A stretch of 64,000 nucleotides of DNA. It comes from a virus. Made by a program: the position numbers and the translations under genes. The notes beneath the pieces were generated by a model. That model worked only from the letters and a program-made list of their open reading frames with translations, did not search any database and was not told where the DNA came from. Positions 22,495 through 54,426 of this stretch are shown here, one piece after another (positions within the stretch are counted from its first letter, which is position 1; each line of letters begins with the position of its first letter). The stretch spans positions 33,425 through 97,424 of IMG/VR virus record IMGVR_UViG_3300024344_003321; one strand, written 5' to 3'.

Positions 22495-22519
22495 TTCTAT
22501 ATTTATATTAGGTACTAAT

Positions 22520-22547
22520 TGTCAGGGAAGGATTTATATGAATAGAC
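22520..22547 (+). repeat. Left copy of partial target-site duplication flanking the homing endonuclease
   Basis: 28 bases matching 23355-23382 at 21 of 28 positions. Both encode a (C/Y)QGRI(Y/W)xNR peptide of the GT2 gene, so the endonuclease start region carries a decayed copy of the host gene sequence it interrupts. The endonuclease ATG at 22538 lies inside it. Confidence 0.6.
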
Positions 22548-26669: not shown

Positions 26670-26673
26670 TAAT

Positions 26674-29115: not shown

Positions 29116-29687
29116 AGCATTTAAGATTACCAGAAAATTATTTAACTGACAGTAGTGTAGTATTTGACTTAGGTGGTTATAACGGCACTTATAGTGGACT
29201 AATACACAATATATGTGCATGTTCTATATTTTTATTTGAGCCAGTTGAAGGATATTATACTCATTGTGTTAATAGATTCAAGGGGAACGATAATATTAAA
29301 TGTTTTAATTATGGGTTAGGTAGTAATAATGAACTTATATCATTATATATTGGTGGTGATTCATCATCAATTTATAAAACAAAACAAAATACAGATGAAT
29401 TAGTATTATGCGAAATAAAACATTTTGGTGAGTTTATAAAACAAAATGAAATTAAACATATAGATTTGATTAAAATAAATATTGAAGGTGGTGAATATGA
29501 TTTATTAGAATATTTAATTGACGGTGGTGACATATTAAAAATAGGTAAACTCCAAATTCAATTTCATAACTTTGATAAAAATGCAGAAAAAAGAAAAAGA
29601 GAAATAGTAAAAAAATTAAAGGTAACCCATTCAATGGATTGGAAACAGGGTGAATGGACTTGGGAAGAATGGAGTTTAAAACAATGA
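29112..29687 (+). CDS. FkbM-family methyltransferase
   Basis: 191 residues. VVFDLGGYNGTYS is the SAM-binding motif I, FLFEPVEGYYTHC follows with its acidic residue, and LIKINIEGGEYDLLEYL is the FkbM signature (D/E-GxE). Expected to O-methylate a sugar hydroxyl. Capping methylation often ends surface glycans, which fits its place among glycan genes. ATGA-type overlap with the next gene. Confidence 0.88.
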   Translation: MKHLRLPENYLTDSSVVFDLGGYNGTYSGLIHNICACSIFLFEPVEGYYTHCVNRFKGNDNIKCFNYGLGSNNELISLYIGGDSSSIYKTKQNTDELVLCEIKHFGEFIKQNEIKHIDLIKINIEGGEYDLLEYLIDGGDILKIGKLQIQFHNFDKNAEKRKREIVKKLKVTHSMDWKQGEWTWEEWSLKQ

Positions 29688-31812: not shown

Positions 31813-32603
31813 ATAAAAAAAATGTAGTGTGGTGGGTAGGAATAAAAAATTCTGATTTATCTGATAAATATGGTGGGTTTGGATATTTTGAGTATTCAAG
31901 GAAATCATGGGAATATTGGTGTGAAAAAAATGATGTGTTATTTGTACCATTCGAGGAACCTACTGAGCAAGATTTAGTGAAATATAGAGTTAATTGGCAA
32001 AAGGCTATATTTGTGTTTGATGAATTAGATAAGCGAGATATAAATTATAATCAAATTGCATTAGTAGATAGTTCATCAATGATTAAATGGGATGCACCCA
32101 ATTTTTTCGATATGACTGGTGATAGGTTTACTGCATGGGTGGATAACGATAATTTAGGGTGGATAAATAATAGTATTGAGGGGTATAAATCTTATTTTGA
32201 CAATTTTGAGTTTGATATAGCTAAATATATCAGTTCGGGGTTTATGGTTTTTAACGAAAATCATCGAGAATTTTTTGAATCATTTAAGCAGTTGTATTTA
32301 AATAACATAGATGATTTTATAGAAGCACAAGACAATATTATAAAAAAAGGGACAGAACAAACCCCTATAAATTATTGGTTGCAAATTAAAAATATTGATG
32401 TTAATTTAGAGTTACCGATAGCGTTCAAATTAACACATTTGCATAGAAAAGAGATGTTTAGTTATAATTGGCAATTAAATGAAGATAAAACGCCATTTTT
32501 TATCAAATATGGGTATGTTTGGTTTTTTAATGGTATAGCTAAAAATGAGCGAACTAATTTAATGTCCCAAGTGTGGGCTGCAATAGGGAGTAAGTATGAG
32601 TAA
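31809..32603 (+). CDS. Paralogue of the next gene; GT-A-like protein with degenerate DXD
   Basis: 264 residues, GTG start at 31809. Clearly related to the product of 32596-33360: shared SWEYWCEKNDV, VNWQKA, INYNQIALVD, APNFFDMTGDRF and HREFFESF. Where the sister has VDVDSI, this one reads VDSSSMI, so the metal-binding DXD is lost. It may be an inactive partner or use another metal site. Overlaps the sister gene by 8 bases. Confidence 0.75.
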   Translation: MNKKNVVWWVGIKNSDLSDKYGGFGYFEYSRKSWEYWCEKNDVLFVPFEEPTEQDLVKYRVNWQKAIFVFDELDKRDINYNQIALVDSSSMIKWDAPNFFDMTGDRFTAWVDNDNLGWINNSIEGYKSYFDNFEFDIAKYISSGFMVFNENHREFFESFKQLYLNNIDDFIEAQDNIIKKGTEQTPINYWLQIKNIDVNLELPIAFKLTHLHRKEMFSYNWQLNEDKTPFFIKYGYVWFFNGIAKNERTNLMSQVWAAIGSKYE

Positions 32604-33360
32604 AAATGTTGTTTTTGTATTAGCAGTTACAGTCCCAGAATATCCATGGCGAAGTAAACCATATGACTATGGGATAGCATCTTGGAAAAAATGGTGTGAA
32701 AAAAATGATTGTGAGTTATTTGTATTAGATAAACTAATACATCCAAATGAGCACATGAAGGTTAATTGGCAAAGATATTATGCATTTGATTTATTAGACC
32801 AAGAAGGTATCGATTATAACCAAATATTAGTGGTAGATGTGGATAGTATAATCCATCCAGATACACCTAACTTTTTTGATATGAGTGATGGTAAATTTTG
32901 TGCAACTCATTGTGATGGTAGTTATGATTGGACCCTCAGAAGTATGGAAAATTATTCCAAATATCTATTCAATAATAAAATGTTTCCATTTTGGAAGTAT
33001 ATTAATGCAGGGTTTCAAATAATAAATAAAACTCATAGACCGTTATATAAATCTATGATTGAATTTTATAATAACAATAGGGAAGCTATAATTGAGATGC
33101 AAAATACTTTTCATACTGGGACAGACCAACCTGTTTTGAATTTTATATTAAATTTATCTGATTTTGAAACTAAATTATTCCCATATCAATATAGTATGGT
33201 TGATATGTTTAGGAAGGAAATTTTAGATGAACAAATGACATTTGTAAAATGTGGTTGGATATACCAATTTAATGCTATACCTGATAATTCTAACGCTGAC
33301 AAAACGCTGTATTGGATGAAGAAAACTTATGAGTATTTTTATGGGGAGTTAAATGATTAA
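32596..33360 (+). CDS. GT8-like GT-A glycosyltransferase with intact DXD
   Basis: 254 residues. ILVVDVDSIIHPDTPNFFD carries a DXD in the place typical of GT-A enzymes that act on nucleotide sugars, followed by FCATHCDGSYDW and INAGFQIINKTHRPLY, a pattern like GT8 (the NSGV segment). Tandem paralogue of the preceding gene. Acceptor and donor unknown. Confidence 0.75.
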   Translation: MSKNVVFVLAVTVPEYPWRSKPYDYGIASWKKWCEKNDCELFVLDKLIHPNEHMKVNWQRYYAFDLLDQEGIDYNQILVVDVDSIIHPDTPNFFDMSDGKFCATHCDGSYDWTLRSMENYSKYLFNNKMFPFWKYINAGFQIINKTHRPLYKSMIEFYNNNREAIIEMQNTFHTGTDQPVLNFILNLSDFETKLFPYQYSMVDMFRKEILDEQMTFVKCGWIYQFNAIPDNSNADKTLYWMKKTYEYFYGELND

Positions 33361-34378
33361 AATTAAACATAAATTTGCTATTGGTTGCTTAGTTCAATGG
33401 TATGAAATCGAATTGATAGAGGAATATTTACAGAGCGTTAAGGCCGCAGTCGATGTGATTGAAAATAAAAAAAATATAGTAATTGATTTATATTTTAATT
33501 GCTCCCAATCATTGGAAAAGATTGATGATGAACAAATCACTATGGTGTCTATAAAAAATAAATATAAGAAAATATTGAATGATATTTTTAACTATGATGT
33601 TGATTGTGATTTAGCATTAGGATGTGAATATAACTTAAATTTAATCATCAATGATGAGAATATTATTTATACGATAGCAGACTATCGTAGGGATTTTAAT
33701 AACAACTATTGTGAAAAAGTAGATGTTTTGATGTGGGGTGAAACTGATTCATTGATACCAAAACAGACATTTCAAGTATTGGATTCCTTACATAATTCGG
33801 CTCGTGATAGTGAAATTTATAAATATGTAGCCTTTTTTGGGACTTGTAAGATGTGGGATAAAAGCTGGGAACCAGTTGAGCATACAGAGTTCACCATCAA
33901 AGAACATAAAGAAGATTTACAGGGAGCCCCAGTACCTTGGTGGGATGTCAGGCATAATTCTACACTTGATGAAATGAATGCTATTAATGATAAGGTGGAT
34001 GATATAGATATAAGAATATTAAAACAGCCAAAATTTAATGGTTGTGGGTTAGTTATATCAGCCGATTTGATTAGAGCTGGAGTAAATATACCAAAGTCAG
34101 TGTTTTTTGTACATGAAGATACAGCATTCCAAAATATATTTACTAAGTTAATGGGAGACCATACCATCCAATTTGTGATAAAAAATATATTTTTAGTTCA
34201 TAATAGACGGCACCCTAAAAAACGAATGTATGTTTTAGGTGAAAGTGGTGAAACTGTAAATAGACAGAGAATGAGCAACGATTGGTATGCTAAAGGAAAT
34301 AAATGGTGTGAATATAATGCTTATAATATGTTCAACCAAGTGAAGGAATACACATGGGAAGATATATTTAATGAATAA
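33353..34378 (+). CDS. Probable glycosyltransferase, GT-A-like
   Basis: 341 residues. IGCLVQWYEIELIEEYLQS resembles a GT2-type opening, MWGETDSLIP gives an acidic metal motif, and GCGLVISADLIRAG plus VFFVHEDTAFQNIF are consistent with the acceptor side (the ED base). Overlaps both neighbours by 8 bases. The family is not certain. Confidence 0.62.
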   Translation: MIKIKHKFAIGCLVQWYEIELIEEYLQSVKAAVDVIENKKNIVIDLYFNCSQSLEKIDDEQITMVSIKNKYKKILNDIFNYDVDCDLALGCEYNLNLIINDENIIYTIADYRRDFNNNYCEKVDVLMWGETDSLIPKQTFQVLDSLHNSARDSEIYKYVAFFGTCKMWDKSWEPVEHTEFTIKEHKEDLQGAPVPWWDVRHNSTLDEMNAINDKVDDIDIRILKQPKFNGCGLVISADLIRAGVNIPKSVFFVHEDTAFQNIFTKLMGDHTIQFVIKNIFLVHNRRHPKKRMYVLGESGETVNRQRMSNDWYAKGNKWCEYNAYNMFNQVKEYTWEDIFNE

Positions 34379-35213
34379 TTTTAAATTGGGTAATAATAGT
34401 AAAATTTCTTGTCCTCAAATGGAGATAGATGATTCTGTTGTAATAGGTAACAATGTACATATAAAATGTGAAACTATAAAAATTGGTAAATTTTCAGTGA
34501 TTGGTGACAATGTTCAAATAACATGTAACCGTTTTGAAGCTGATGATTGGTTATATATGTGTGATGGAGTCGAAGTTGGTAGAGGTGGTTGTAATGGGCC
34601 AAATTCAAATGTCAAAATAGGTAAACATGTAGGGATATTTGAAAACACAATTATCAACCCATCAGAATCAGTTGAAATAGGTGATGATGTTGGTATAGGT
34701 GCTGAAGTTATGATTTGGACACATGGGGCGTGGTTAGATGTATTACAGGGGTTCCCCTCAGATTTTGGGCCAGTTAAAATTGGAAATAATGTGTGGTTGC
34801 CAGCAAGAAATATAGTTTTACCTAATGTAACTATTGGTGATAATTCAGTCATTGGGATTGGTTCAATAATAAATAAAGATATTCCGGCCGGCTCTTTAGC
34901 AGTAGGGTCACCATGTAAAGTCATAAAAGAAAATTATTACCCAAAAAAGATAAGTGAAGTTGAACAAAGCCAGATAATACAAGGTATTATATCTGATTGG
35001 AATAAATTACATGAAATAAAAAAAATAACAGATACAATAACAAAATATGAAAATGGAAAAATAATACTTGTTCAGCAAAATATGTACACTATTTATTATA
35101 TAGATGATAGAAAAATCGATGGATACATTAATGATGTTTCGGAAGATTTACGAGATTATTTAAGAAGAAGAGGTATAAAAATTTATACTGATAGGTTATT
35201 TAAATCAATTTAA
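34371..35213 (+). CDS. Left-handed beta-helix (hexapeptide) acyltransferase
   Basis: 280 residues. Repeating hexapeptides such as VVIGNN, IKIGKF, VEIGDD, VGIGAE, VKIGNN and VTIGDN form the beta-helix; HGAW provides the catalytic His as in maltose/galactoside-type acetyltransferases; VAVGSP-like LAVGSPCKVIKE ends the domain. The last 90 residues are an extra helical part. Probably acetylates a sugar or amino sugar of the glycan. The aminotransferase at 25554 could supply its amine acceptor. Confidence 0.87.
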   Translation: MNNFKLGNNSKISCPQMEIDDSVVIGNNVHIKCETIKIGKFSVIGDNVQITCNRFEADDWLYMCDGVEVGRGGCNGPNSNVKIGKHVGIFENTIINPSESVEIGDDVGIGAEVMIWTHGAWLDVLQGFPSDFGPVKIGNNVWLPARNIVLPNVTIGDNSVIGIGSIINKDIPAGSLAVGSPCKVIKENYYPKKISEVEQSQIIQGIISDWNKLHEIKKITDTITKYENGKIILVQQNMYTIYYIDDRKIDGYINDVSEDLRDYLRRRGIKIYTDRLFKSI

Positions 35214-35225
35214 AAGAGGTTATAT

Positions 35226-35924
35226 ATGCCACCATATCCAATAGTTTTAAACGATAAAGAATTTAGATTATTAGATTTTAGTAAAGTGTTATGTTTGTCT
35301 CCACACCCAGATGATATTGAATATGCAATGCTGGGTTCGATGATAAAATTTAAAAATACACAATTTGATATTATAGTAACATCGCAGGGTGGTGATTTTG
35401 ATGATACCTCTGCAGTTAATAGACATGATGAATGTAGTTCGATATGGGAATTATATTCTAATATTTCAGGTAAATTTTTAGATGTGAAGTATGTAAAAGA
35501 TGTTGGTGAAGATGAATTAATTAATAAAATAGAAAGTTTAGTAACGGTATCTGATTATGATGCTATATTCGTACCACCTGCTGAAGATGCACACTTTGAA
35601 CATAGGTTTATAAACACAATATCGGATGCATTAGTTCGTAGAAAGTCATGTGGTATAATAAATTATAAAACACCAAGTACATTGGAAAAATGGGAACCAA
35701 ATTTTTTCGTTGACTTAGATTTAGATGTCCGTCGCAGTGATGTTAAAACTCCATATAATATAGTATGGTATAAAAAATTAAGTGGTTTAAAAAAGTTTAT
35801 ATCACAGCAGCATAAGTCATTTTTTAATGAGGATGTATTAACAGATTTTCATAGAGTGTATCAATGTTCAATGCGAGGGTTGTCACATGTCGAATCATTT
35901 AAATTAATCAAAGGATATTTTTAA
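35226..35924 (+). CDS. LmbE/PIG-L-type N-acetyl-sugar deacetylase
   Basis: 232 residues. LCLSPHPDDIEYAMLGS carries the zinc motif HPDD, and the second motif is AEDAHFEHR, matching the family's D.H.DH with Glu in place of the second Asp. Removes acetyl groups from GlcNAc-like residues. Found with sugar biosynthesis genes. ATG 35226 follows AAAGAGGTTA. The pair of acyltransferase and deacetylase next to each other suggests an acyl-swap on an amino sugar. Confidence 0.88.
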   Translation: MPPYPIVLNDKEFRLLDFSKVLCLSPHPDDIEYAMLGSMIKFKNTQFDIIVTSQGGDFDDTSAVNRHDECSSIWELYSNISGKFLDVKYVKDVGEDELINKIESLVTVSDYDAIFVPPAEDAHFEHRFINTISDALVRRKSCGIINYKTPSTLEKWEPNFFVDLDLDVRRSDVKTPYNIVWYKKLSGLKKFISQQHKSFFNEDVLTDFHRVYQCSMRGLSHVESFKLIKGYF

Positions 35925-36859
35925 TGAAAATAGGTTTTTTTACTGAAGGTGGATATACAGGAAAAGTTCCAAGAGAAAATCCTAATATGCGAACTGATAT
36001 GGCCTGGATACATGCACTTGGTGCAGTTCATCACCCATTAACTGCATTAAATGGGTTACCCGATAATTTATATGACATTGGTATTGTAATAATACCTAAA
36101 AAGCGACAGCATTTAATCGAATATCCATTAGTTGAAACATTAAAACGGATATGTAATAAAGTTATATCTATGCAAGAAAGTACATATTGGTATTGGCAAG
36201 ATGACCCTATAGCAGAACAAATTTGGTATTTCAATGTATTAGCTGATATGGATATGATTTTATGTCATAATGATTTGGATTTACAATATTATAGAGGTAT
36301 AGTTGGTGATAAATGCCATTTGATGCAATCATTGATGATAACCGATAATATAAAAGTTAGTGATACTAAAACTAATAGTGTCATGATAGGTGGTAACTTT
36401 GTTAGTATTTATAGGGGGTTCGACTCGTATATGGTAGCACGCGAGCTCGCTGATGATATATGGGCACCGACAACTGGTAGAATGAAAAAAGATGAAACGG
36501 GATTAGACATCAATCATTTACCTTGGGTAACTTGGCGCGATTGGATATTTGAATTATCTAAGCATAAATATGGTGTACAATTAGGGACTCCATCTGCAGG
36601 TACATTTAATTTAAATTGCTCATATCTTGGGATACCGTGTATCGGATATGATAATGTAAATACTCAAAGTATATTACATCCTGCATTATCTGTTTCAGAT
36701 GGTGATATATATAGTGCTAAAAAGTTAGCTAAAAGATTAAAAACAGATATAAAATTTTATGAGCGGTGTTCAAACCAAACTAAGGATTTATATAAAAAAC
36801 ATTATTCAGAACAAATATTTTTAAACAAAATGATAGGAATTTTCAATGAGACCAATTAG
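35924..36859 (+). CDS. Probable GT-B glycosyltransferase
   Basis: 311 residues. Opening IGFFTEGGYTGKVPR and the C-terminal VQLGTPSAGTFNLNCSYLGIPCIGYDN give a GT-B-like arrangement in which a Gly-rich donor loop lies near residue 225-245. MILCHNDLDLQYY marks the end of the first domain. No clear family motif; the context suggests a glycosyltransferase. Confidence 0.62.
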   Translation: MKIGFFTEGGYTGKVPRENPNMRTDMAWIHALGAVHHPLTALNGLPDNLYDIGIVIIPKKRQHLIEYPLVETLKRICNKVISMQESTYWYWQDDPIAEQIWYFNVLADMDMILCHNDLDLQYYRGIVGDKCHLMQSLMITDNIKVSDTKTNSVMIGGNFVSIYRGFDSYMVARELADDIWAPTTGRMKKDETGLDINHLPWVTWRDWIFELSKHKYGVQLGTPSAGTFNLNCSYLGIPCIGYDNVNTQSILHPALSVSDGDIYSAKKLAKRLKTDIKFYERCSNQTKDLYKKHYSEQIFLNKMIGIFNETN

Positions 36860-38042
36860 TTTTATCCAACCATCACGGAACAATCTAAAATACCTACAAT
36901 GGTCATACAATTCTATAAGAAAGAATTTAGACCCAATGCACGAAATATGTATGGCAGATGATTTTTCAGATGATGGAACTTGGGAATGGATGCAAGAAAT
37001 TACTAAAAAAGATAAAAATGTAAAGATACATAGAAACGAAGGTCCAACAAGATTGGGTCATACAATTCTATATGATACATTGATTAACGATTATGCTACA
37101 AACGATATTGTTATGATTTGGCATGCGGACATGTACGCATCTCCAGGGTTAGATAGGGAGATAAATGTACATATAGCTCCTGGTAAAGTAGTTAGTGCTA
37201 CAAGAATAGAACCACCATTACATCCTCCAGGGCCTGAAAAGATACTTAAAGATTTTGGTATAGAACCTGAGGAATTTGATGAGGTTGGTTTCATGAAATT
37301 TGCGAATAAGAATGCAGACGAAAATAGTTATAAATGTACTCGAGGTGTATTTGCTCCATGGGCTATCTATAAATCAGACTTTCAGAAGATTGGTGGACAC
37401 GACCCATTATATGCTCCTCAATCAAAAGAAGATTCCGATATATTCAATAGATTTGTGTTGGCTGAATATGAACTAATTCAAACTTGGGCTGGCACCGTTT
37501 ATCACATGACTTGTAGAGGGAGTAGATTTGCTGATGGGGCTAAACGAAATCCAGATGGTGAGGTATTTATGAAGAACAGAGAAACGAGTGAATGGTTAAT
37601 ACAGAATGAGCGGAGCACACGAAACTTTATCCGTAAATGGGGTCACTTTGTACAGCACGATGAATATCTAAAACCAATCATACCACCAAAATACAATATC
37701 GGGTTTGTTATAAAGAATTGTAATCGTCAGATATTAGAAACACTTGAACCTTGGTGTTCAACAATCTATACAGATTTTGCATGGGAAGATTATAAACAGC
37801 GAGAACAAGTAAATACATTATACAATTTGAATGACCGTGTATATTCAATCCACGCTGAAAAGAATAATGATATACTTGTTAGGTTTGATGGTAAACAATT
37901 AACAAATGAAAGCTTTAACTTTCTAACATCATTACCTGATATAATACGGGATAGTGGTGAATTAGGTGAATTTGAGTTAGATATATTTGAAATAACAATA
38001 AATAGTTTAAAAACTTATGAGGAGGAATTAATACATGTATAA
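36846..38042 (+). CDS. GT2 glycosyltransferase with C-terminal extension
   Basis: 398 residues. GT-A features: ISFIQPSRNNLKYLQWS, ICMADDFSDDGTWEWM, metal motif IWHADMY (HAD in place of DXD), and APQSKEDSDIF with the base region. Then a segment TCRGSRFADGAKRNPDGE. The last 130 residues (from PPKYNIGFVIKNC) form an extra domain of unknown function. Overlaps the previous gene by 14 bases and the next by 8. Confidence 0.82.
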   Translation: MRPISFIQPSRNNLKYLQWSYNSIRKNLDPMHEICMADDFSDDGTWEWMQEITKKDKNVKIHRNEGPTRLGHTILYDTLINDYATNDIVMIWHADMYASPGLDREINVHIAPGKVVSATRIEPPLHPPGPEKILKDFGIEPEEFDEVGFMKFANKNADENSYKCTRGVFAPWAIYKSDFQKIGGHDPLYAPQSKEDSDIFNRFVLAEYELIQTWAGTVYHMTCRGSRFADGAKRNPDGEVFMKNRETSEWLIQNERSTRNFIRKWGHFVQHDEYLKPIIPPKYNIGFVIKNCNRQILETLEPWCSTIYTDFAWEDYKQREQVNTLYNLNDRVYSIHAEKNNDILVRFDGKQLTNESFNFLTSLPDIIRDSGELGEFELDIFEITINSLKTYEEELIHV

Positions 38043-38883
38043 AATAGGTATAGTAGGTAAAGGTTTTGTGGGTTCAGCAGTACAGTTCGGATTTTCACCA
38101 AATGTTGGGTGTGATGCTGAAGTTCGTATATATGATAAAGACCCAGATAAATCGACACATTCATTATATGAAACTGTGAATGAATCAGATTTTATTTTTG
38201 TTTCAGTACCAACTCCAGCTAATCCAGATGGTTCAATGAATTTGAGTATAGTACATAGTGTATTTTCTGACATATCAAGGGTTAATCGTAGAACAGATAA
38301 TATAATGCTATTAAGGTCAACTGTGGTACCGGGCTCAACGGCATCTATACAGGAAAAATTTAAAGGTATTAACATTGTATTTAACCCAGAATTTCTTACA
38401 GAAAGGTCAGCTAAATTTGATTTTATTAACCAATCGAGGATTATCTTGGGTGGTAAAAATTCTCATACTTTGAAAGTGTCTAAATTATTTAAACAACGGT
38501 TTGGTGAAACTATACCAGTTATACGAACTAATTTTGAAACTGCCGAGATTATAAAGTATATGACTAATTGTTATTTAGCTACAAAGGTTTCTTTTTTAAA
38601 TGATATGAAACGGATATCGGATAATTCTAATGTAGATTGGGATATGGCTATAGAAGGATTTGTCAGAGATGGTAGAGTAGGGCACACCCATTTATCAGTT
38701 CCAGGACCAGATGGTAAATTGGGTTTCGGGGGGTCATGTTTTCCAAAAGATGTTCAAGCAATGATAACTTATGCTGAAAGTATTGGGGTTGATGCAAATG
38801 TATTAAAGGGTGCTTGGGAAACAAATTTACAAGTAAGGCCAGAAGAAGATTGGAAGGATTTAAAGGGTAGAGCAGTTGTATAA
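38035..38883 (+). CDS. UDP-glucose/GDP-mannose 6-dehydrogenase, short phage form
   Basis: 282 residues. N-terminal NAD site IGIVGKGFVGSAV, VSVPTPANPDGS, LLRSTVVPGST and FNPEFLTERSA; the catalytic Cys is in GFGGSCFPKD. The third, UDP-binding domain of normal enzymes (about 390-450 residues) is missing. A short form like this occurs in phages. Would oxidise a sugar nucleotide to a uronic acid, if active. Last gene of the glycan cluster; a 60-base gap follows. Confidence 0.88.
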   Translation: MYKIGIVGKGFVGSAVQFGFSPNVGCDAEVRIYDKDPDKSTHSLYETVNESDFIFVSVPTPANPDGSMNLSIVHSVFSDISRVNRRTDNIMLLRSTVVPGSTASIQEKFKGINIVFNPEFLTERSAKFDFINQSRIILGGKNSHTLKVSKLFKQRFGETIPVIRTNFETAEIIKYMTNCYLATKVSFLNDMKRISDNSNVDWDMAIEGFVRDGRVGHTHLSVPGPDGKLGFGGSCFPKDVQAMITYAESIGVDANVLKGAWETNLQVRPEEDWKDLKGRAVV

Positions 38884-38943: not shown

Positions 38944-39099
38944 ATGCCAAAAGTTGACATCCGAGATTTAGAAATGTATGATGAATCAGATGATTGCATT
39001 AAATTTGAAAAGATGAGAAAAAATAATAAACACAAAAAGGAACAGAATGATGAGAAAAAATCAATTAAAACTAAAAAAAAACCTGATAAAATTATATAG
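38944..39099 (+). CDS. Small charged protein
   Basis: 51 residues, strong ribosome site TAGGAGG at 38931-38937. The N-half is acidic (EMYDESDDC) and the C-half strongly basic (Lys-rich), typical of small T4-like phage proteins. Too short for the usual gene cut-off but well positioned. The upstream gap has a TATATATATATTTTG stretch that may be a promoter. Function unknown. Confidence 0.6.
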   Translation: MPKVDIRDLEMYDESDDCIKFEKMRKNNKHKKEQNDEKKSIKTKKKPDKII

Positions 39100-39499
39100 T
39101 TGTATATTTATATATATACTATGTATTGGGTGTAATAATACTTTAATATGTGAATCCGATTGTTACTTGGAATTAGATGTACCATTAGCACATAACAACG
39201 GGTTTTATCACATAGAATTATTGAGTAATTATACACAAACATTTGCTACAATTGAAGCAAATACAGGTTCAGTTGGTTATAACGAAAAGGTTGCGTGGAT
39301 GTCTAATAAAGAAGTATATATCCAAGGTGAGTGGACGAATATAGTAAATAAAAATTCATATACAGATGAAATGGGTGTTGCAAAAACTGTGATAAGTATT
39401 TGGAATGAATTTGTAGGTGATACGATTATAGTTTATTCTGGGTATATTGACCAATGTGAAATACATCATACTGATTCGTTGAAAATTATAGTAAATTAG
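39050..39499 (+). CDS. Putative lipoprotein
   Basis: 149 residues from ATG 39050 (ATG 39047 is also possible), overlapping the previous gene in another frame. A basic N-terminus (KNQLKLKKNLIKL), a hydrophobic stretch ending YILCIGC form a signal with lipobox, so the mature protein would start at the Cys near residue 28. The rest is beta-rich with a further Cys set. Phage lipoproteins often act in superinfection exclusion, but that role is not shown here. Confidence 0.7.
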   Translation: MRKNQLKLKKNLIKLYSCIFIYILCIGCNNTLICESDCYLELDVPLAHNNGFYHIELLSNYTQTFATIEANTGSVGYNEKVAWMSNKEVYIQGEWTNIVNKNSYTDEMGVAKTVISIWNEFVGDTIIVYSGYIDQCEIHHTDSLKIIVN

Positions 39500-39959: not shown

Positions 39960-40184
39960 ATGAATGATTCCGTAGAAGATTTTTATAACCCACCATCAGC
40001 TGGGACAGAGTTTGAACAACTATATTTTTCAGAAATTGAAAATGATGATTTATTTTGGTTAAATACAATGCATAGTGATTCTAATGCACCACATAAAAAA
40101 ATTGAGGATAACAAGGGTGTTAATATGAGAACAGGTGATATTTCAGTGTTCAAACAAAATACTCATGTTTACCAAAAAAATTAA
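39960..40184 (+). CDS. Unknown 74-residue protein
   Basis: Starts 2 bases after the previous stop, with GAGGAG upstream. Acidic N-half (DDLFWLNTMHSD). The last part overlaps the beginning of the HNH-like gene in another frame. No motif recognised. Confidence 0.55.
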   Translation: MNDSVEDFYNPPSAGTEFEQLYFSEIENDDLFWLNTMHSDSNAPHKKIEDNKGVNMRTGDISVFKQNTHVYQKN

Positions 40185-40689
40185 TGTGAGTGGATTTAAT
40201 AAACCATTAAAATTACCTGGTAAACGGCGAATATTAACAAAGAAAATGATTGAGGATTCTCAATCACAATCAAAGTCAGCTGCAGGGGCAGCTCGATGGT
40301 TAGAAGTTTCTTATAATACTTATAAGAAATGGGCTAAATACTATGGTGTATTTGAACAACATAAAAACCCAAAAGGTTTTGGTATCAAAAAAGGTTGGGC
40401 TACTCATAAAATACCTTTAGAGAGGTTATTTTCAGGTGGCCCTATCCCAAGGAATTGGTCCAGAGCAGTCATAAAAAAACGATTAATCAATGAGGGATAT
40501 TTGGAAGAAGAATGTGCTCAATGTGGATATAATGAAACGAATTTAAATACAGATTTAATTTGTTTAGCGATTGATTTTATAGATGGTGATACTAAAAATT
40601 GGTCACAAGATAATATACGATTATTATGCCCTAATTGTCATTATTCATTTAATGCATTCTTTAATAAATCAAAAGTATTTTGTAAATAG
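40165..40689 (+). CDS. HNH-like protein with helix-turn-helix and zinc knuckle
   Basis: 174 residues if ATG 40165 is used; the ribosome site is weak and GTG 40135 or GTG 40186 are alternatives. SAAGAARWLEVSYNTYKKWAKYYG is a helix-turn-helix-like segment. The C-terminal CAQCGYNET, then LAIDFIDGDTKN and LCPNCHYSF form an HNH zinc arrangement in which the first His is replaced by Asp (ID instead of DH). It may be a DNA-binding regulator or a weakened HNH endonuclease. Basic GFNKPLKLPGKRR leader. Confidence 0.65.
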   Translation: MFTKKINVSGFNKPLKLPGKRRILTKKMIEDSQSQSKSAAGAARWLEVSYNTYKKWAKYYGVFEQHKNPKGFGIKKGWATHKIPLERLFSGGPIPRNWSRAVIKKRLINEGYLEEECAQCGYNETNLNTDLICLAIDFIDGDTKNWSQDNIRLLCPNCHYSFNAFFNKSKVFCK

Positions 40690-41050: not shown

Positions 41051-44000
41051 ATGGCATCCAGGGGTAAATATTTAATTATATTAGCTGATTTGAGTTGGTT
41101 TTATACTTTGATTGAAGAGCATAAACCACCACGCAGTTATATATTAAAAAATGAATGGGACGAATATGTGTCATCGTGTACAGATACAGATGATTGTGGG
41201 AAATTCATGGAACCTACATGGTATCACAATTGTGTGTGTGAAAATGCTAATGGGTGCTGCGAATCTCCTGGGTGCACCGATGAGATGTGGCAACAAGGAA
41301 TGACCCCAGAGTGGATTTGTGAAAATCCCCATGACTTCATGGAGTGGGAAACTGCTAATTTTATAAAATTTAAAAGAACACACGGTTATGAAGTTGAAGT
41401 AGCATATTTAAGAAATAATTATAATGTTTCTATACCAAGTGGTGAGCCTGAAACTAGCCATATAACAGCATTAGATTGGAGTGAGCACTGCAATGATTCT
41501 CCATTTGTCGTTGATGGTCAGGAATGCAACCCTGTATCTGCTGTAATGGAATATTTTTCAGAAAACCCTGATTTAAAATTTGTTTTATTGGTGGGAACAG
41601 TTAGCCACGGTGCTGTCAGAAAAGAAGGGCAGATAGGGGCCATACCTCATGAGGACATATGGCTTACTCCATATGTAGGTATAGAAAGTGGTCAAACGGC
41701 ACCAACTGACGAGGCACGACACAACATGACAGACCAAGATTATTATATAGAAAAACATATAAATCCGGGTTATGGAATCGATTTTGACGCATGTGATATG
41801 AGGGGGGATTATTTCAGTAAAAACCCAAGTTATTCAGTTGGGAGATGGAGTGTTGTAGGTACAGAACCTCTGCGGCGCATGAAATTAAAAACGATTCAAT
41901 ATACAAGACTCGAAATAGTTGATAAATATTACAGAACATTAAGCAGAATAGTGAATAGTGTGGGGGTGGGTAGTGACACATTCTCCGCTATCTCACCCGA
42001 AAATGATTGCATACCAGGGAAAAAATATTTAGATAGAGTTCAACTTCTGGCGTCCACAGCTCATGCGAGTTCAGCGGGCAGGAATATGATTTATATTGGA
42101 GAAAAATTGTATGAGAGTGGAGTATGGGACACTTATACATGCGACCAAACAAGTGACGCTAAAGAAAATATTCAATATAATATGGGGGACTTATCACTTA
42201 AACTACCATTTTCCAGTACTATGAATCCAGCAATCGGAGCCCATTATCTGTATTGGCCATCCCATTTTTGGTTTTACAGAGGTTGGTCAGGTAGTGATGG
42301 TTTTTCAGAACCGTACTGGAGGTCAAACGATATTTGTAGTGAATCTGAAGATTTTAAATATGCTTATGATGGTATGGATGGTGCCCAATCTGGTATTCCT
42401 ATAGAGGCAGGCAATTTTCGACTATATTGCACTAATAATGGAGTACTTACCGATGTCAATGGTATCAGCTCCAGTGTAGCAAATCCGTGGATGCCAACCA
42501 TAAACTTTTTTTGTACTTGTGACTTGGGGGATTCAGATTCTTGGGGGTGGTGGGTTGACAACTGGTTAAACTTAGGGCATCCTACATTGGCTGGAAGTTT
42601 AATCACTGGACCAGATGGTGATGACATGTTCAATTACATTAACCCAGCTGGGGCAGTGGCTCACATAGGTCCTAGTGATTTTCATTTAAGAACAAGATAT
42701 AACAATCCACTTTGCGATGGGTTTGCTAATGCTATATTAGATAATAATATTGAATTTATCGGTGAAGTTATTAATTATGGTAAGAGGCAGTTATTCGAGA
42801 TTTATAATTCCATTGTAATAGACTCTGATATAATTATTGGTGGTTATAATGCAGTCAAGTGTTACGATGCTTGGTATAATTTATTTGGCGACCCAGGTCT
42901 CCCAATATGGAGAGTTCAACCTGATATTATTACAGAACCAAATGATTTCATATTAGATAATAATGAAACTCCAATTACAAATTTATTATCAGCTCAAACT
43001 ACAATAAATGCTACCCCTTTGATGACTTCGAGTTTCAGGATTAAACCAACTGGTGAAGATGTTGATGAAATAGTACATGGCACATATGCAACAATAATGT
43101 ATGCTGACCAATTAATAGATACAGTTTTTGCAGATGAGGGAAGTGGTTTATTACACTTCGATTTAATTAACTATACAGAGTGGCAAAACAATAATGAATA
43201 TTGTAATCAATATTTAGAAGTTCCTGAAGTTGAGGGTGGACCATATTGTGATGCAGTTGATGGGTGTGCATATTCTACATCATTCCCTCCAAGTGAAACT
43301 GACGGTTGTAAGCCTGTATTTGATGTTTGGATAAATAAATTTACACTACCTCAATATGAACAAAAGCATGTACAGATACTAATAGATTATATTTATGTAC
43401 AGGGCTGCACAGACGAATTAGACCAAAATTATAATCCTGACGCTGTGGTTTACAGCTCTGAATTTTGTAGTAACATGAGTATATATGAAAATAGTATAGT
43501 CATTACAGAAATTAATGATAGGTATGTAGGAACTGAATTTATTGAAATATTTAATAATAGTAATAGTCCCATAAATCTTGGTGGATTTAGAATTTATGCA
43601 ATTGGATTTACTAATACTGATGAGATGCCAAATATAACCATACCCCCACATGAATTCATAGTATTGGGTAGTCCCGAGTCAACTATTCAGTTAGATTTAT
43701 TTAATGACCATTTAGTTTCAGGTGTCAATCTATTCAGGTGGCCTGAAGGAAACTCTATATGGAACCAAGGTGAATTAATAAGAATTACAGACCCAAATAA
43801 TAATGAAGTTGATTCTGTTGATACGAGTTTATTATTAGAGTGGCACGCATCACCACAGAATTCGTCATGGGAATTAACTACATTAACACAGGAAAATGGT
43901 GGAAATGCATACCCTGACCATTGGATTGAAAGTGAGTTTTTTGGTGGTACACCTGGTAAACGGTATTTAGATTGGCGAGAAAATGCATGGAACCATATGC

Positions 44001-44369: not shown

Positions 44370-44403
44370 TAGTATATTTTTTTATATTTATATTTGATGA
44401 TGA

Positions 44404-44411: not shown

Positions 44412-44430
44412 TTTATAGGAGATAGTTACA

Positions 44431-47400
44431 TTGGCAATAACATTCCAGCAACCTGATATAATATATGGATTACTATACCCTGATGCAAATCAAAGCGCTC
44501 AACCATTTGGTGGTGCAAACGAAGCGCAAATTAATAATACTGCAAATGAGATTTGTAATGGTCTTGGCTATGATTTATATGAGTATGAAACTATCGATAC
44601 GCAAAGTAGTTTATACTCTGGTGTAAATCAAGATAATGTATGGATACGGAGTTGGAGTACAAATAACGATACATGGGTTGGGCAAAACGGGATTGGTACA
44701 AGTCAAAGCCCCGGGTGTGAATTGGGCCAATTATGTTCGCACCTATTCGCTAGTTTAACATGTTATAATGAAAGTGAAGTTCCTCCTGAACCAATACTCG
44801 GTTGCACAGATTTAACAGCAGATAATTATAACCCACTTGCTACAGAAGATGATGGTAGTTGTGACTTTTCTAGCGGATTTTCTATTACATATTATAGTGG
44901 TATGTGTAGGTACTGTACATTACTACCTAGCTTATCAGGTAATGTTATTGGGAGTGGCATGACACCCGAAGAATGTTGCACGGCCGCTTTTGGAATGAAT
45001 ACTGCAACCCTAAGTTCGGACTGTAATTCTGGGTCATGGCTTGGATATTATTGTTCGTGGACAAGTATCGTATCAGGTTGTATGGATGTTAATGCTTGTA
45101 ATTACAATTCTGAGGCAACAGAAGATGATAATAGTTGCCTATATGGAATTGATGAATGTGGTGTATGTGGAGGTGATAATTCAACTTGTGCTGATTGTGC
45201 AGGTGTTCCGTACGGGAGTTCATCATTAGATGACTGTGGTGTATGTGATGGTGGTAACGATTCTATGGATGAATGTGGAGTATGTAATGGTGATAATTCA
45301 AGTTGTATGGGTTGTACAGAACCATCTGCGTATAACTATGACCCTTATGCAATAATAGATGATGGTTCATGTTATGCTGATAAATGGGGTTGTATAGATA
45401 CGAACGCGTTAAATTATGATGCTGCTGCTACATATCAAACTTCATTTGAATTTCCAAGAACTGCTGATGCTGGACATTATCAGCGATATGAATATATTAT
45501 CAATGATACACCATGTATATACTCGAATAGTAGTCATTCAATCGGTATGACGGACCCACAAACAACAACGGTGCCCGATATATCATCTCTATATATAACA
45601 AATAGAAATGTTAATATTCAGTTTCAATCAGATGAAAGTCCAGTTTATGAGGAATGGAATGGTATTGATTTATACTTCCCAACATGTCATGTAGGCTATA
45701 GTAATTGTATAAACAGTTTTGGTTACACTAAATCTCAAGCAGTACCATATAAACTAGCATGGGATAACGGTGATAATACATGGTTTGGACACGGGGCAGC
45801 AAATAGTTATTGCCAACAATTGGGTTTACCAGCAAAATGGGACGAAGGTGAAGTAAGTAATCAAACATACGATTTTGGTTTAATTCATTACGATTATGAA
45901 AATGACCAATTGTCATTCGATAATCTTATGGGCATGCACGGGTATCGAGGGTTGTATGATGGTGTTGGGTGCCAAGGTCCTGTTACTGCTAACTCACCAT
46001 GGTGTGATGCCTGGGTTTATTACGCAAGGACAATAGAATGCTTTATATCAGTACCGGGTTGTACAGACCCAACGGCTGATAATTATGACGATACAGCAAA
46101 TTATGATGATGGTTCATGCCAATGGGTGGGTTGTTCGGATTTAGTTGCCGAAAATCATTATTGTGAATCATATGCACCAACTATTTTATATTCTTCACCA
46201 TATATTTGCACAAAGTGGTTTAGTAATAACGAATTTAATCTTAGGACATTCCCATCAAGCTCACCGACTGGTGCATGGTATTCTACTGAATTAAACAAAC
46301 CACATATATTAAATGATACGAATACTAACCAAGAAGTTTTATATTTACCTGGCACCATAAAATTTACAGGAAATTCTTCATTTTATAGTTTAGATTCTAA
46401 TTTAAATGACGATGGTTCATGTGAGTATATAGTGGGTTGTACTGACATTGAGGCAGCAAATTATAATTCCGAAACGACTATGGTATGCGATGGTGAAAAT
46501 CACAATATATCTACTATTGGAGTCGATGACTGCACAGCACCGGGTGTTAACTGCTGTTGTATATATGATACTGACGCTCCAATTGGTAGTATTGACTTAT
46601 ATTATGACGGCGAAATACAAGTATCACCTCAGAATAATATTAATGTTTATGATATTCAAGTTTGGAATGATGATGAACCACAATTAATGTTAATGATAGG
46701 AGCTACGGATGACTTTGAAGGTGATATTTCATTTACGGGTACACTAACTGAATCTGCAATAAATACTATTCCAGGTGGTGATACGGGTAACCTTAATATA
46801 TACGGTAATCTTGCTGCATCAAATATAATCACAACATCTAATTTTTCAGGGACACTTGATAATGGTTCTGCTGCTATAAATATTTTTCCGTATATATCTG
46901 TTGATAAATATACTATCCCAGGTGACTATGGGGTTATAATTAATGTACAAGTTTCAGATAATTTTAATAATGTATTATCTATGCAACAGGAAGTGACATT
47001 TTCAATATTATCGCCAAGAAAATTAGTATGTATGTATAATACGACTTTACCAGACACCTCGGAGACATTATATTGGTATCAAGGTATTTATACAGCAGAT
47101 GGTGATAGATTAAACGATTGTGGTAATAATAGTAAATGTAAAAATTCTTGGGATGGCCACAGCCACACTGGCTCAGGTGGGTGGCAATATAGCCAAAATA
47201 ATCTAACATGGGTTAATTCAAACTACACATTACCATTACCGACTGATTATGATTCTTGTAATACTTTTTGTTTTTTCTTTTACGGTAGGTATTGTGATAT
47301 TATTGCTCCAAATCAAATGTGCGGTGTTTCTTTTGCTGGACAGCAATGGACAGATAAATTAAATGAACTTAATGGGGGTGCAAACTCACCATTTTATGTT

Positions 47401-50400
47401 CCAAATGCATATTCATATTCGAGTGGTTTAGATAGTGGGTTTACACATGAATTTTGTCAAAATGTATTAGGGTATGATTCATATATTAGTGACACATTAA
47501 TTGACGATAATCTATCGCATTCGGGGTGGACAAGTAATTTAGCGACAGTCACTGGAGGTACTTGGGGTAATTCAACGAATATGTTACCATATTATGAGGG
47601 TATGGATAGCTGTGTAAGTGGGTTCATGAGTTCTCAGCAAACATGGAGCTGGGCTGTTACATTTGAATGTACTCGTGATGAAAATATTCAGTTAGGTTGT
47701 ACGAATATATTATCTCCAAATTATAATATTAATGCAGCAATAGATGATGGTAGTTGTCAAATTGAAGGGTGTTTAGACCCCCAATCATGTAATTATAAAC
47801 GAGAGGTAACAATACATAACCAAGATTTATGTAGATATCCAATCCATGAAAAATTATTTACTGTGGGTTATAATTCAGAAAATATCAATTCATTCACTAA
47901 TTTACCAGAATGGGTTCCAATACAAGAAATAGTTACACTTGGGGAATATGACACTAATGAGTTGTATTGTTGTGATAATAATACTGATAATATGGAAGGT
48001 AGGATGGATGATTCCTCTATAATATTATGTTGTAGGGATTCTAACAATAATGGTATATGTGACCCATTAATTGTACCATCTACTCCAGGTTCAGATAATT
48101 GGAGGTCAAATATAAGACCTGCATGCTTTAGTTGTGAAACTCTAAATACAGATGGTAATACATGGCTCCCATTAGAATATTCAACTATTGAAATATCTGG
48201 GTGTACAGATTATTTGGCTGTAAATTATATGTCATCTGCTACAATTGAGGGTGGTACTTGTTATTATGAAGGTTGTATGGATGATACTGCATGTACATAT
48301 TTTTGTGACTTAAATCCAGATACTTATCCATGCCAAGGTAGTGAAATGCACGGGTATGAATATAATATTTCTCATGTAGTGAATAACCCTACTATGTGTA
48401 AATACAAAGGAATTTCAGAAGATTATCCTTGTTCATGTGATATGTCGGATGTACCCGTGGTATATTACAGTGATTCGGATAATGATGGGATTGGGTGTTG
48501 TGATGACTCAATATTAGCTTGTTCAGCAGATAAACCTATAAAATTCGTTACTACTTGTGATGAAAGTAGCTCTAGCTGCACATGTTTTGGTATTGTCGAT
48601 GATTGTGGTGTATGTGATGGTAACAATGAATGCATAGGATGTACAGATGTTGGAGAGTATGATTTTGAATGGTTTAATACTACCATCGTATCTGATTTTG
48701 GAACTTATAGTCAATTGACAGGTTACCCCTTTTATCCACCGGCACAATTCCCCGCGGGTGATTATGATTATTTAGATAATACGGCAGGTGCAAATAATGC
48801 ACTTCTATCTTCTGCAAACATAATAACTATTGATGATGGTTCATGTGATTATTGTAGATTTGGGTTAAAAGATGTATCGTGGTATATTAATAGCGATTCT
48901 GGTCAATTAGATTGTTTAAATGACAGTTCATGTTATAGTGAAACTCCAACGGGTTACAATCGCATAAATTATACATGTGATATTGGGTTTCCTTTTAATG
49001 TAGATAATATATATTCGGGGACTGTGATATATAGTGATGGTCAAATTATTGAGGGTGGTTCTCTTGATGCAAGCACGCCAAGGAAATGTTGCGAACGAGC
49101 AACAAATTTGTTGGCGGAAAGTATGGGTAATTCTTATAGTTTAGGTTCAACTCCACATTTACAGGGTTATATTAAATCCTCTGCTGGATTAAATGGTAGA
49201 GTAGGTCAATTTTGTTGTGGAGATGTAGAGGGTGCAAACACTGGAATTGGTGGGTGTACTGATAATCATGCTGATAATTTTAATCCTAATGCTATACACG
49301 ATAACGGGTTATGTATTTATTATGGGTGTAACAATCCGATTGCAGATAATTATAATGAAGATGCTACTCATGATGATGGGACTTGTATTTATACAGGTTG
49401 TATGGAACAAGAATTTTGTAACTATGACCCGATTTATAATAAACCGTGTAAAAAATGTTGTATTTCACCAAATCCAAATGGTTGTGGTGATGGTATTATT
49501 CCTGGATGTGATAGCGACGGGACAATAGGCCCACCTAAAGTTGCGTATTATCAAGATACAGATGGTGATTGTTATTGGAATACACTTGATAATAGTATAA
49601 ATGGTACTCCGATTTTATGTGATGAAGTATGCCCAGGTGATGTTGTTCCAACTTATAATGGATTCGATTGTGTTTTAATATCAAATGGTTGTGGTCCAGA
49701 TTTATACCCAGATGTTCCTGTAGGTGAAGAAATATTTGGTTGTATGGATAACACTGCTTGGAATTATAATGCTTTAGCCAACGCAGATAGTGGAGATTGT
49801 ATATATACCCATTCGGGTGTCGGTGAAGAGTGTATTTGTAATGATGCACCTGATATTGATATTGAATTTTATTATTTTGGGTCAGACACAGCCGACCCAT
49901 GGGTTCATTGTACTGGCTGGGGTGGCACAGGTGATTCTCTGGGTTGGGTACCACCTGTATATTCGTATGATATAAGTGATATGCCACTAACAAATGTTGG
50001 TTATATAAATACTGCAGAAAGTTGTTGTGCATACCAATATGGTGGTAATGAGTTTTATTATAATGCAGTAGTACAATCACCATTCAGATATTGTTGTTGT
50101 TTTAACACTTTAACGGGGTGCACAGATACTGTTGCTTCAAATTATAATCCATATGCTCAAGAGGATGATAATAGTTGCGAATATCATATATGGGTAGATG
50201 TTGCAACAACAATTGGTGGTCAAGGGGCCCCACCTGATTTTGATTGGGATGGCTCAAAGAATTGTAATGATTTATGTGTATTGTATGGTGCTATCAATGG
50301 AGTTGAATCAACTTGTTCAAATCAAGGGTGTGCAGGATTCCATGATAATGTAGCTTTAGATGAAGATTACTCGGAAGTGGTTATGGGTGATGTTTGGCAA

Positions 50401-53400
50401 GATGTGAGTAATTATTGTCCATTTGTTATTTACTTTGGTCAGCAATGCGATACTTGTGATGATATTGGTGGTACATGGAATATATCTAGCAGTGCATTTG
50501 ATTCACCATTAGAAACATGTCAAGCAGTAGGTGGGGGAGAAGGTCCTGCAATATGGGTCGGTCAAGTCCCAGATTATCAGATGAATGGCCAAACTCCATA
50601 TCATAATCAAGATACAGGTGAGGGATTTGGTATTTATTGTTGTAACCCACCAGCAGAGTTGGTAAAAGGGTATCATACAGGTGGTACTAAATACATGTCA
50701 CATTTCGGGGGAAACATAAATGAATTTTGTGAATTAGACAGTGATAACATTATAGATTTATTTTTATGGTTTTCGGGATATGACCCATGTCCAGGGTTGA
50801 CTGACCCAATGTCTTGTGATAATTATTCTACTTTGTATGGTGACCATATATGTAAATGGACTACTGAAATAGGTAGCCCGTTGCAGATGTATTATAATTG
50901 GGATACATGTAATGGGCAAACATTTGAACCGTTAAATCACCCGTTGGCTCTACAAGAAGATTGGGTAGGTGCACCTGTTTGGCCTACATCTGTTCAATGT
51001 TGTTGTTCTTGGGACGAACCAATATTAGGTTGTATGGATGAAATTGCATATAATTACGATTCGGATGTAAATTTCCCATGTGGTGCACCATTCTATGAAT
51101 GTGGTGTTGATTGTGATTGCTGTCAATATTCGGGTTGTATGGATTCAGATGCAACAAATTTTAATATTAATGCTACACTTGATTGTAATGATGAATTAAT
51201 GGGTAATGATAATTCTTGTTGTGAATATGAAATGGGGTGTATGGATTCATCTGCTTTAAATTATAATCCAGATGCAACATATAATAATGGTATCGATTGT
51301 ATTTATGGGACAATAGGGTGTATGGACCCAATTGCATCAAATTATAATCCTAATGCTACACATGACTATTGTTATCCAATGACTGGGATTTATTATGCAG
51401 GATATCCCGCAGGAACAGCATGGGCTGATGTTATCCCAGAGTGGGTGGGTAGTGCACTCGATGGAGCATTATGTCAATGTGGTAGTGGGTTAGATGATAT
51501 TATTGACCCAGGGGAATTGGGGTGCGATATATGTATTATTCCTGATAGGGACCATGACCCTGGTGATATTGGTATAACTGGGTTTCCAAATAATAATTTT
51601 CCGGGTCAATGTAGGTCAAGTTGTACATTTTTACCTGAAATAGAGGTGGGTTATTTTCTGAATGGGCAAAATATGGCGACATCGGGCTTAGATGAAATAT
51701 ACAATGTTCATTATGTGTCCGAAGAACAAATTGCTACTTTGGGGGCTATCGTTACTTTAACTGGAATTACTAATGAAGTTATGTGGATAGAGTGGGGTTA
51801 TGAGTGCAGTCCAGTTGTCCCAGTCACACCGACATGTGAAGAACAAGTGGTTTGTAATCCTAATACTAACAATGCGTTAGCTAATTTACAAATTTCTATT
51901 GATGAAGCTAATAATTCGTATGAACCACAATTGATGTTACCATCATTTGAGTCTGCTAATTTATTTCCGAGTTATTTAACGGTACATGCAACTGTATATG
52001 ATTCAAATAATCAATCATCTTCAGGTGAAATTGTATTATTAATACATGGTTCAGATGATAATTATACTTATTGTGAACCAGAAGATGATGGGGGATATTG
52101 GAATCATTGGGATTATGACCCATCAAACGGCGCACCTTTACCTGACACTCCACCACCTATAACCGTTTATCTATCTGATATCCCTGGTCTTGCAGAAGCT
52201 TTTGAAGATTTGAACCACGGTGTTTCAAATTGTTATTTACCTATTGTAGATTTCATTAACAATAATATGAATGAGCAACCACCATATGGTGGAGATTCAA
52301 TCGGGCCGTTTCAGGGTTGTCCTGCATTTTGTCCTATGGATAGAGGAGTATCAGATTTTGACTGTTGTGGTGACAGTAATGAAATGACATGTATGTGTGG
52401 GCAATATGGTGATTGCAACCATTTAAACAGTTATAAATATAATTTATGTCCACCAGACATACAAGCAATCCAAGAGTTATGGCCATTTGCCATAGATGAT
52501 ATAGGTATAGGTGGTGCATCTCCAGGTAGTCTTGTACAGATACCTCCTTGTTATTATTCTTGTAGTTTAACACCGATTGATATAAGGTGGGCTACATTTT
52601 TTAGAGGTAATGATTCTTGTAATTGGTCAACGAGTGTGTCATGGGATGGGGGCTCATTTGATGGTGAGGATTATGGTTGGCCAAATTTAGCTTGTACAGT
52701 TTGGGATTGGGATGGGGAAGATTGTATCCCAAATTCTGTTCCAAGTGTTATAACTCACTTTAATCAGTTTGGTAATCCATGTGGTTGGACATATAGTGGG
52801 TGGAGAGGGTGCTGGAATTTACCTGAACAAGAATTTGGAGACCAGGCATATCAAGATGCTTTAATTAGTTTCATAGGATTGTTGGGAGAAGATAATTGGA
52901 CTATTACTGATATTCAAGACCAATTGCCCTGGGGTTTTGCTTTGGAGGGTGGATTGGAAGGTGATTTTGCCGAACCTTTGGATGAAATTCTACAAGAAGA
53001 AGCACCATTTAGGCCTGATGTTCCTTTTGAATATGATATTGAATTTAATGACATTCCCATATCCATAGATACAGACTGGCCAGTAGAAGGGTATGACGAT
53101 GCATGGTTAGATGACCAAAATTGGTCTCAGCCCTCAGATGCTTATGCAGATGTCAGTGGTGGTTTCGATGGTGGTGTATATGACCAGAATGGAGAAGCGA
53201 TTGCATTTGAAGCTTCAGGGCTTGTACCAACTGAGTGGACGGGTGCGTGGGAAGATTTTTTCTCTTCGGATGTTTATGATGATTTTTTCGAGGCTCAATT
53301 GAATCTGTACACTTTGTTTGGTGAATTCCAAGAGTGGGCGGACACTATGCCACCAAGTTTTCAAATGCTGCTTGATATGGCTGAAGTTGATTTTTTCGGG

Positions 53401-53634
53401 GGGACACCTTCAACATTTGGGATGCCTGAAGGTTATGAGGCTGAATTTCAACCAGGTATAGTTTCTGAATTATTAGATGATATTCAGAATGGTACCCTCA
53501 CGGGAGATGAGGCGTTAGAAACCCTTCATCAGCGAGCTCATGGGATTATGAGCTATTATTCAGCAGATTATCAAAATTGTTCAAATCCCACTACATGTAT
53601 TTTAAATGGTGGGCATGGGCCTTACCAGGAGTGA
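44431..53634 (+). CDS. Giant Cys-rich repeat protein, probable adhesin or tail-fibre-like protein
   Basis: 3067 residues, TTG start at 44431 after TAGGAGATAG. Contains about 21 copies of a short Cys module of the form GC(T/M)D..A.NYN..A..DDGSC between residues 124 and about 2315, plus [11 protein letters not shown]-type segments near residues 245-290 and 1390-1410. At least three related modules of some 90-120 residues (near 27-115, 423-540 and 963-1087), each with FC..LG or IC..LG followed by W-rich sequence and a closing C, look like repeated binding domains. An Ig/HYR-like domain lies at about 710-865 ([28 protein letters not shown]). The C-terminal 760 residues lack the repeats and are acidic. 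No signal peptide or anchor is apparent. Confidence 0.8.
44800..51378 (+). repeat. Array of about 21 degenerate GCTD..A.NYN coding repeats
   Basis: Counted by eye in the protein: first copy [18 protein letters not shown] at 44800, last [18 protein letters not shown] from 51316. Copies are about 22-25 residues but spaced irregularly (directly adjacent to over 200 residues apart) and diverged, with Cys, Asp, Ala, Asn-Tyr and a closing DDGSC most conserved. They often come in pairs. The same motif occurs once in the preceding protein, near 43400. Confidence 0.85.
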
Positions 53635-53637: not shown

Positions 53638-54426
53638 ATGAGTAAATTTAGAACTATGTATAGGAGAGTAGTAGATAAAATAAACTACCAAGACGGTAGT
53701 GGTTATCAATTGGGGAATTTAATTCAATTTAATGGGATGCTACATAGACCAACTAAATTGCGAGTGTCCAATTGGTGGTCATCTTTTTCTTCGACTCATA
53801 GTGAGTTGTTAGCAAGATATAATTTTTGGATTACAGGTAATTTTATTGCTAAAGGATTTTCAACTTGGGATATAGATATTGTGTTGACACCTAAAAGTGA
53901 TAATTATGTTGATGAATTTAGTAATGATGTTATTTTAGCTGGATTGAAAGATGATTTACAGACAATTATACAGTCATCATTCGCTCAACCAGAACCTTTT
54001 TTAGTTGATGTGTTTTATTCAAATAATTGGGAACCATGGCCAGATGGGTTGAGCCATCAACAATTTGAAAGTTATGCAGATGAAACTCTAACAGGATTTA
54101 CAATAATAAATGAAGTTAGTCAGCATGGTACAATTACCCATGATTACGCCAATATGAGTCCAGCACCCGAACTGATAATCCAAGATTTATTTAAAAGAAC
54201 AACAACCAGATTGTCAGCAAAACATATACTAAAATATCAAAATGAAGGTAAATTTTGGGAAGACCCTATATTAATGAATACACAGGCCCCATCACCTGGT
54301 GTGATTAAACCTGATAAAATTCCAATAATATCAAAAAATAAATTTACAGATAATGCTAAGTTTATGGGTAATACTACATCAATAAATAAAAATCAGGGGA
54401 AGGTTAAACATGTTAAAAGCAAGTAA
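53638..54426 (+). CDS. Nucleotidyltransferase (Pol beta-like) fold protein
   Basis: 262 residues. ITGNFIAKGFSTWDIDIVL carries the superfamily pattern G(S/N)...G.S..D.D with D78 and D80, and FLVDVFYS supplies a third acidic residue, D124, on a following strand. This is the minimal NTase catalytic triad. Gly-Asn replaces Gly-Ser at 67-68. The C-terminal 80 residues are disordered and basic. No known antitoxin partner is evident; the next small gene overlaps it. Could be a nucleotide- or protein-modifying enzyme. Starts 4 bases after the giant gene stop. Confidence 0.65.
   Translation: MSKFRTMYRRVVDKINYQDGSGYQLGNLIQFNGMLHRPTKLRVSNWWSSFSSTHSELLARYNFWITGNFIAKGFSTWDIDIVLTPKSDNYVDEFSNDVILAGLKDDLQTIIQSSFAQPEPFLVDVFYSNNWEPWPDGLSHQQFESYADETLTGFTIINEVSQHGTITHDYANMSPAPELIIQDLFKRTTTRLSAKHILKYQNEGKFWEDPILMNTQAPSPGVIKPDKIPIISKNKFTDNAKFMGNTTSINKNQGKVKHVKSK

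Follow-up and report, generated by a model that had tools for sequence, protein, structure and literature searches.

A 3067-residue cysteine-rich modular protein of a T4-like phage and its putative association with the virion

Genomic context of the locus

The window analysed here, a stretch of 64,000 nucleotides, runs from base 33425 to base 97424 of a linear virus record that is 97,424 bases long (IMGVR_UViG_3300024344_003321). The contig belongs to a T4-like myovirus, with genes for a major head protein, Ad2, sheath, hub, tape measure, UvsX, DnaB and RNR. The nearest relatives of the head protein are found in an uncultured phage (50%), Microcystis phage Mel-JY01 (49.3%) and Flavobacterium phage immuto (47.7%), and the host, which we infer, is probably a marine member of the Bacteroidota.

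The gene P0001 (44431..53634, + strand, as are all features of the window described below) lies outside the tail/baseplate operon, in a variable locus behind a glycosyltransferase/sugar-nucleotide cassette of about 20 kb (18167..38883) that is conserved in the relatives G002 and G005. Between the cassette and P0001 lie, in this order, a small lipoprotein-like ORF with the motif LCIGC (39047..39499), recognised from its sequence only, an HNH endonuclease gene (40135..40689), with homologues in G002 and near the corresponding locus of G005, and P0002 (41051..44209). P0003 (262 aa; 53638..54426) begins right behind the P0001 stop codon and carries a nucleotidyltransferase-like stretch (GNF..STWDIDIV). 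Further downstream, positions 57187-58572 of the window encode a DUF2828/DUF7788 protein of 461 aa whose relatives occur in 680 phage records. A chimeric contig was considered and is unlikely, since the genes to the left and to the right of P0001 both have phage relatives.

Composition and layout of P0001

P0001 is an intact ORF of 3067 codons, initiated at a TTG codon preceded at 9 bases by a Shine-Dalgarno sequence (AGGAG, 44417..44421), and a reading frame of this size is too large for a chance origin. The encoded protein contains 184 cysteines (6.0%) and 440 acidic against 62 basic residues, in agreement with the first-pass annotation of the locus as a Cys-rich mosaic. Its GC content (0.369) and GC3 (0.215) match those of this phage's structural genes (0.369 and 0.192 for the MCP), so the gene is not compositionally foreign. 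Searches of Pfam, PHROGs and NCBIfam with P0001 returned zero matches; tblastn searches of isolated phage genomes with P0001 and P0002, and single-sequence viral scans with P0001, P0002 and P0003, were equally without a match, and the Pfam/PHROG and tblastn searches revealed no likeness to a known fibre family. A simple hydropathy rule detects no signal peptide, as had been noted earlier, and neither a transmembrane segment nor a C-terminal sorting domain of the Type IX secretion system (T9SS; PF18962) was found.

The most frequent element of the protein is a short Cys-containing module, termed GCTD, which occurs 20 times under the strict pattern GC[x][DNE]....[NTDS][YF] and once more in a degenerate form at residue 567, matching the earlier count of about 21. 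Modules form a tandem array of three at residues 1608-1680 (49252..49470) and a second array of four at residues 2200-2320 (51028..51390). Two others, at residues 216 and 294, flank repeats of a 13-residue type (45076..45375), a region whose sole PDB similarity is to ADAMTS5 (E=0.6). P0001 also contains domains of another kind: three segments of about 90 residues, designated A domains, are located at residues 29-114 (44515..44772), 451-542 (45781..46056) and 994-1087 (47410..47691). They resemble one another at 21-29% identity, a weak likeness (z = 2.3 for A1/A3), and have no Pfam match at E<=5 and no PDB match; the AF2 model of an A domain is unusable (pLDDT 41). The first-pass annotation had proposed at least three repeated lectin-like modules, of which the threefold repetition stands, if weakly, and the lectin assignment finds no support. 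Its Ig-like domain, for which a nearly Cys-free region (46573..47028) is the candidate, is likewise left without a confirming Pfam match. The C-terminal region is acidic and almost Cys-free, and carries no sorting tail (52828..53550).

The module resembles the truncated EGF-like hinge of perforin-2

An alignment of triple modules (A4) was used both for a sequence profile and for an AF2 model, which reaches a pLDDT of 88 over P0001 residues 1604-1683. Searched against PDB sequences with hmmsearch, the profile matches MPEG1/perforin-2 (E 0.002) at a 21-residue segment that agrees with the phage module consensus (PDB 6u2j, 6u23 and 6sb3), and the P0001 modules fit the MPEG1-type truncated EGF-like pattern GCxD....NY......DDGSC. 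Foldseek with the module model retrieves MPEG1 entries only, at E values of 2.6-5 that are not significant alone, the module being very short; the best local fit to one MPEG1 entry is 0.7 A over 24 columns. Profile and model agree in suggesting the truncated EGF-like hinge of perforin-2/MPEG1 as the counterpart of the module. A truncated EGF-like domain has been described in MPEG1 at the hinge that joins MACPF to P2 (PMC6989145), and an EGF-like linker has been postulated (PMC7593815); the matched segment is equated with this domain because of its place in the chain. The GCTD module thereby gains a likely structural identity. In MPEG1, a single copy serves as the hinge of an animal pore former, whereas P0001, a phage protein with neither the MACPF nor the P2 domain of MPEG1, carries about 20. 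As far as these models go, P0001 consists of truncated EGF-like modules of the perforin-2 type joined to phage-specific domains.

Distribution of the module in viruses and cells

The first-pass annotation had called for a search of metagenomic phages for the repeat. A back-translated 19-residue module pattern, scanned over IMG/VR and cellular genomes, occurs in at least 120 stretches of the former and at least 119 of the latter. Among the matches listed, the cellular ones are mostly from Flavobacteriales, followed by Neomarinimicrobiota, Poseidoniales and a few others, which agrees with the likeness to marine bacterial surface proteins noted earlier. These surface proteins bear the same module as P0001 but mostly possess a signal peptide. 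When only 5'-complete ORFs with a length of 200 aa or more are counted, and signal peptides are called by the simple hydropathy rule, 63 of 96 viral carriers lack one, against 15 of 105 cellular carriers (Fisher 3.5e-14, the sequences being uncorrected for relatedness), leaving 33 viral and 90 cellular carriers with a signal peptide. None of the 48 complete viral carriers without a signal peptide has a T9SS-type tail.

The two kinds of viral carrier also differ in their surroundings. Genes beside those without a signal peptide match baseplate wedge, head closure (Hc2), tail fibre, MCP and virion structural families, whereas genes beside those with a signal peptide match endonucleases, endolysins, RNR and chaperonins, plus some head/portal genes. 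In one record (L047), the modules sit within a 2095-aa protein that itself matches a virion structural family (phrog_14478). The gp232 protein of the isolated cyanophage S-CAM3, a Synechococcus phage (YP_009321289.1), annotated as virion structural and encoded in a tail-fibre cluster, is, like P0001, a module protein of a T4-like phage without a signal peptide; it differs from P0001 in its length (516 against 3067 aa), in its number of modules (two against 20), in showing no A domains and in its genomic surroundings. The earlier impression that proteins of this type are absent from phage tails is therefore not borne out: in uncultured viruses the module is frequent near virion genes, and in S-CAM3 it is present in a structural gene of the tail-fibre cluster. 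Literature searches found no report of this module in phages.

An exported counterpart in a related phage

Among 23 clade records, P0001 has a match in G005 only, a phage whose sheath is about 60% identical to the one encoded here. The corresponding G005 locus encodes P0004, a 981-aa protein with a signal peptide, 13 modules and a Por_Secre_tail match (8.5e-15); G002 has no P0001 match, which shows the locus to be variable. P0004 appears to be of an exported type and P0001 is devoid of export signals, so related phages show two alternative deployments: the module seems to be host-exported in one case and, as we infer for P0001, virion-associated in the other. Phage-coded T9SS cargo has been proposed for Cryophage (PMC7468147), and this cargo shares with P0004 a host-like modular architecture of surface proteins and, among Bacteroidota phages, a location at a variable locus, in contrast to P0001, which has neither signal peptide nor C-terminal sorting domain (CTD). 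The T9SS-tailed module protein of the relative (L372:14233-17175, - strand) adjoins a protein with a signal peptide that resembles an outer-membrane barrel (L372:13199-14233).

How a protein of this kind leaves the cell had been posed as a question by the first-pass annotation, and the comparison answers it in part. The relative uses a signal peptide and a T9SS tail, P0001 uses neither, and leaving the cell through lysis or with the virion would consequently be the simpler route.

A promoter-like motif upstream of P0001

A promoter-like sequence, ATATTTATATTTGAT (44384..44398), lies 32 bases before P0001 and differs by one mismatch from a 15-bp motif, ATATTTATATATGAT. If as many as two mismatches are allowed, this motif occurs six times on the + strand and never on the - strand of the 97.4 kb contig, always in intergenic positions, where a Markov model of intergenic DNA predicts a mean of 0.22 sites; the motif was first noticed by inspection, so this test is partly post hoc. 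The five other sites (L004 708, 4170, 7497, 9306 and 11335) precede structural or structural-region genes, which begin at 839, 4203 (Ad2), 7560 (sheath), 9350 (the next gene) and 11355 (the tape-measure cluster). When a matrix is derived from these five sites only, the P0001 site is the top remaining site on the + strand, and two sites on the - strand score as high or higher. The motif core, TATTTATA, also precedes late genes of G005 as well as some non-structural genes, and is absent upstream of P0004, the gene of the exported module protein. The RNR gene has the core in a weaker form, as does the gene for the first glycosyltransferase in G005, so structural genes are not the only ones with the motif. 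Judged by this distribution, the motif (ATATTTATATATGA) is promoter-like and a candidate late promoter. Read on the coding strand, the core corresponds to the T4 late promoter, TATAAATA, in reverse complement. In its forward orientation, the T4 promoter was itself considered as the relevant signal and rejected, as it is not enriched (14 occurrences on the + strand against 17 expected); one copy lies at 44404, ahead of P0001.

Possible roles of P0001

With somewhat better than even confidence, we favour the view that P0001 is a virion-associated adhesive or coating protein of this T4-like phage. Because the protein has no host export signals and follows a motif otherwise associated with virion genes, it is most likely carried on the virion. 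The same motif and the proximity of viral carriers without a signal peptide to virion genes support the earlier proposal of an extracellular or virion action. Late in infection, P0001 would be synthesised in the cytoplasm and would then join the tail or capsid; its cysteines would oxidise once outside the cell, and the protein could form a stiff acidic arm or coat touching host or particle surfaces. Counted against this interpretation is the position of P0001 outside the baseplate/fibre operon, at a locus where the module protein of G005 is an exported one. Its match in a single one of 23 clade records, the occurrence of the motif outside structural genes and the failure of domain searches to reveal any part of P0001 with a known binding function count against it as well.

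That locus, together with the T9SS cargo proposed for Cryophage, lends some weight to the idea that P0001 acts at the surface of the infected cell or is secreted from it, in superinfection exclusion or host adhesion, after export without a classical signal. We consider this unlikely: neither P0001 nor P0002 has a signal peptide or CTD, sorting domains are missing throughout the complete viral carriers without a signal peptide, and P0004 is not preceded by the motif of P0001. A soluble matrix or decoy protein, freed by lysis and coating debris or neighbouring cells instead of being bound to the virion, would suit the late-type motif and the lack of export signals, as well as the very acidic, Cys-rich and adhesin-like composition of P0001. 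Carriers without a signal peptide nevertheless lie elsewhere within virion gene clusters, which favours the particle over soluble release, and this too is a reading to which we give rather little credence.

The remaining possibilities are more remote. An intracellular metal-binding or host-takeover protein with reduced cysteines would agree with the absence of export signals and with a Cys and acidic content that could bind metal, but it is highly improbable in view of the match to an extracellular EGF-like module and of a promoter motif common to P0001 and structural genes. Recently captured host DNA, decaying or functionless, is what modules typical of Flavobacteriales, Neomarinimicrobiota and Poseidoniales might suggest; against this stand the 3067 intact codons, the phage-like GC and GC3, and the gene's own promoter-like motif and Shine-Dalgarno sequence. 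There is no sign of a pseudogene, and we regard this last alternative as the least credible of all.

If the virion-associated reading is true, P0001 would be an extreme case of module-based virion parts in marine phages. The module raises the question of how proteins seemingly made for disulfide bonding come to be carried by phages that assemble in a reducing cytoplasm. One tentative and at present doubtful answer is that marine phages turned a disulfide module shared with host surface proteins and animal perforin-2 into virion parts, dropping the export signals and using a late promoter. The cysteines would then be reduced at assembly and the protein would harden only after lysis, in an oxidation-triggered maturation of adhesive appendages.

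The neighbouring protein P0002

P0002 (1052 aa) combines a Peptidase_C25-like domain of the gingipain family with an LTD and a single GCTD module (43403..43465). The C25 domain scores 50.3 bits against a gathering score of 23. Aligned to a profile built from about 15 C25 sequences of hosts, P0002 keeps the cysteine (TCDLGD) and has a Trp where the GHG motif has its His, so that the catalytic His-Cys pair is incomplete. P0002 thus shares the domain and its conserved Cys with C25 proteins such as gingipain and PorU, and differs from them by the His to Trp change and by having no signal peptide; a T9SS CTD is missing as well. By this alignment, P0002 is a gingipain-family C25 homologue in which the catalytic His is lost, and it is probably not a protease. 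No C25 match above the cut-off occurs in 50 other virus records, and peptide patterns of P0002 have no match in cellular genomes. A weak P0002 match in the relative G001 was discarded after a PF01364 search there found nothing. With its one module, this pseudo-C25 protein may belong to the same assembly as P0001.
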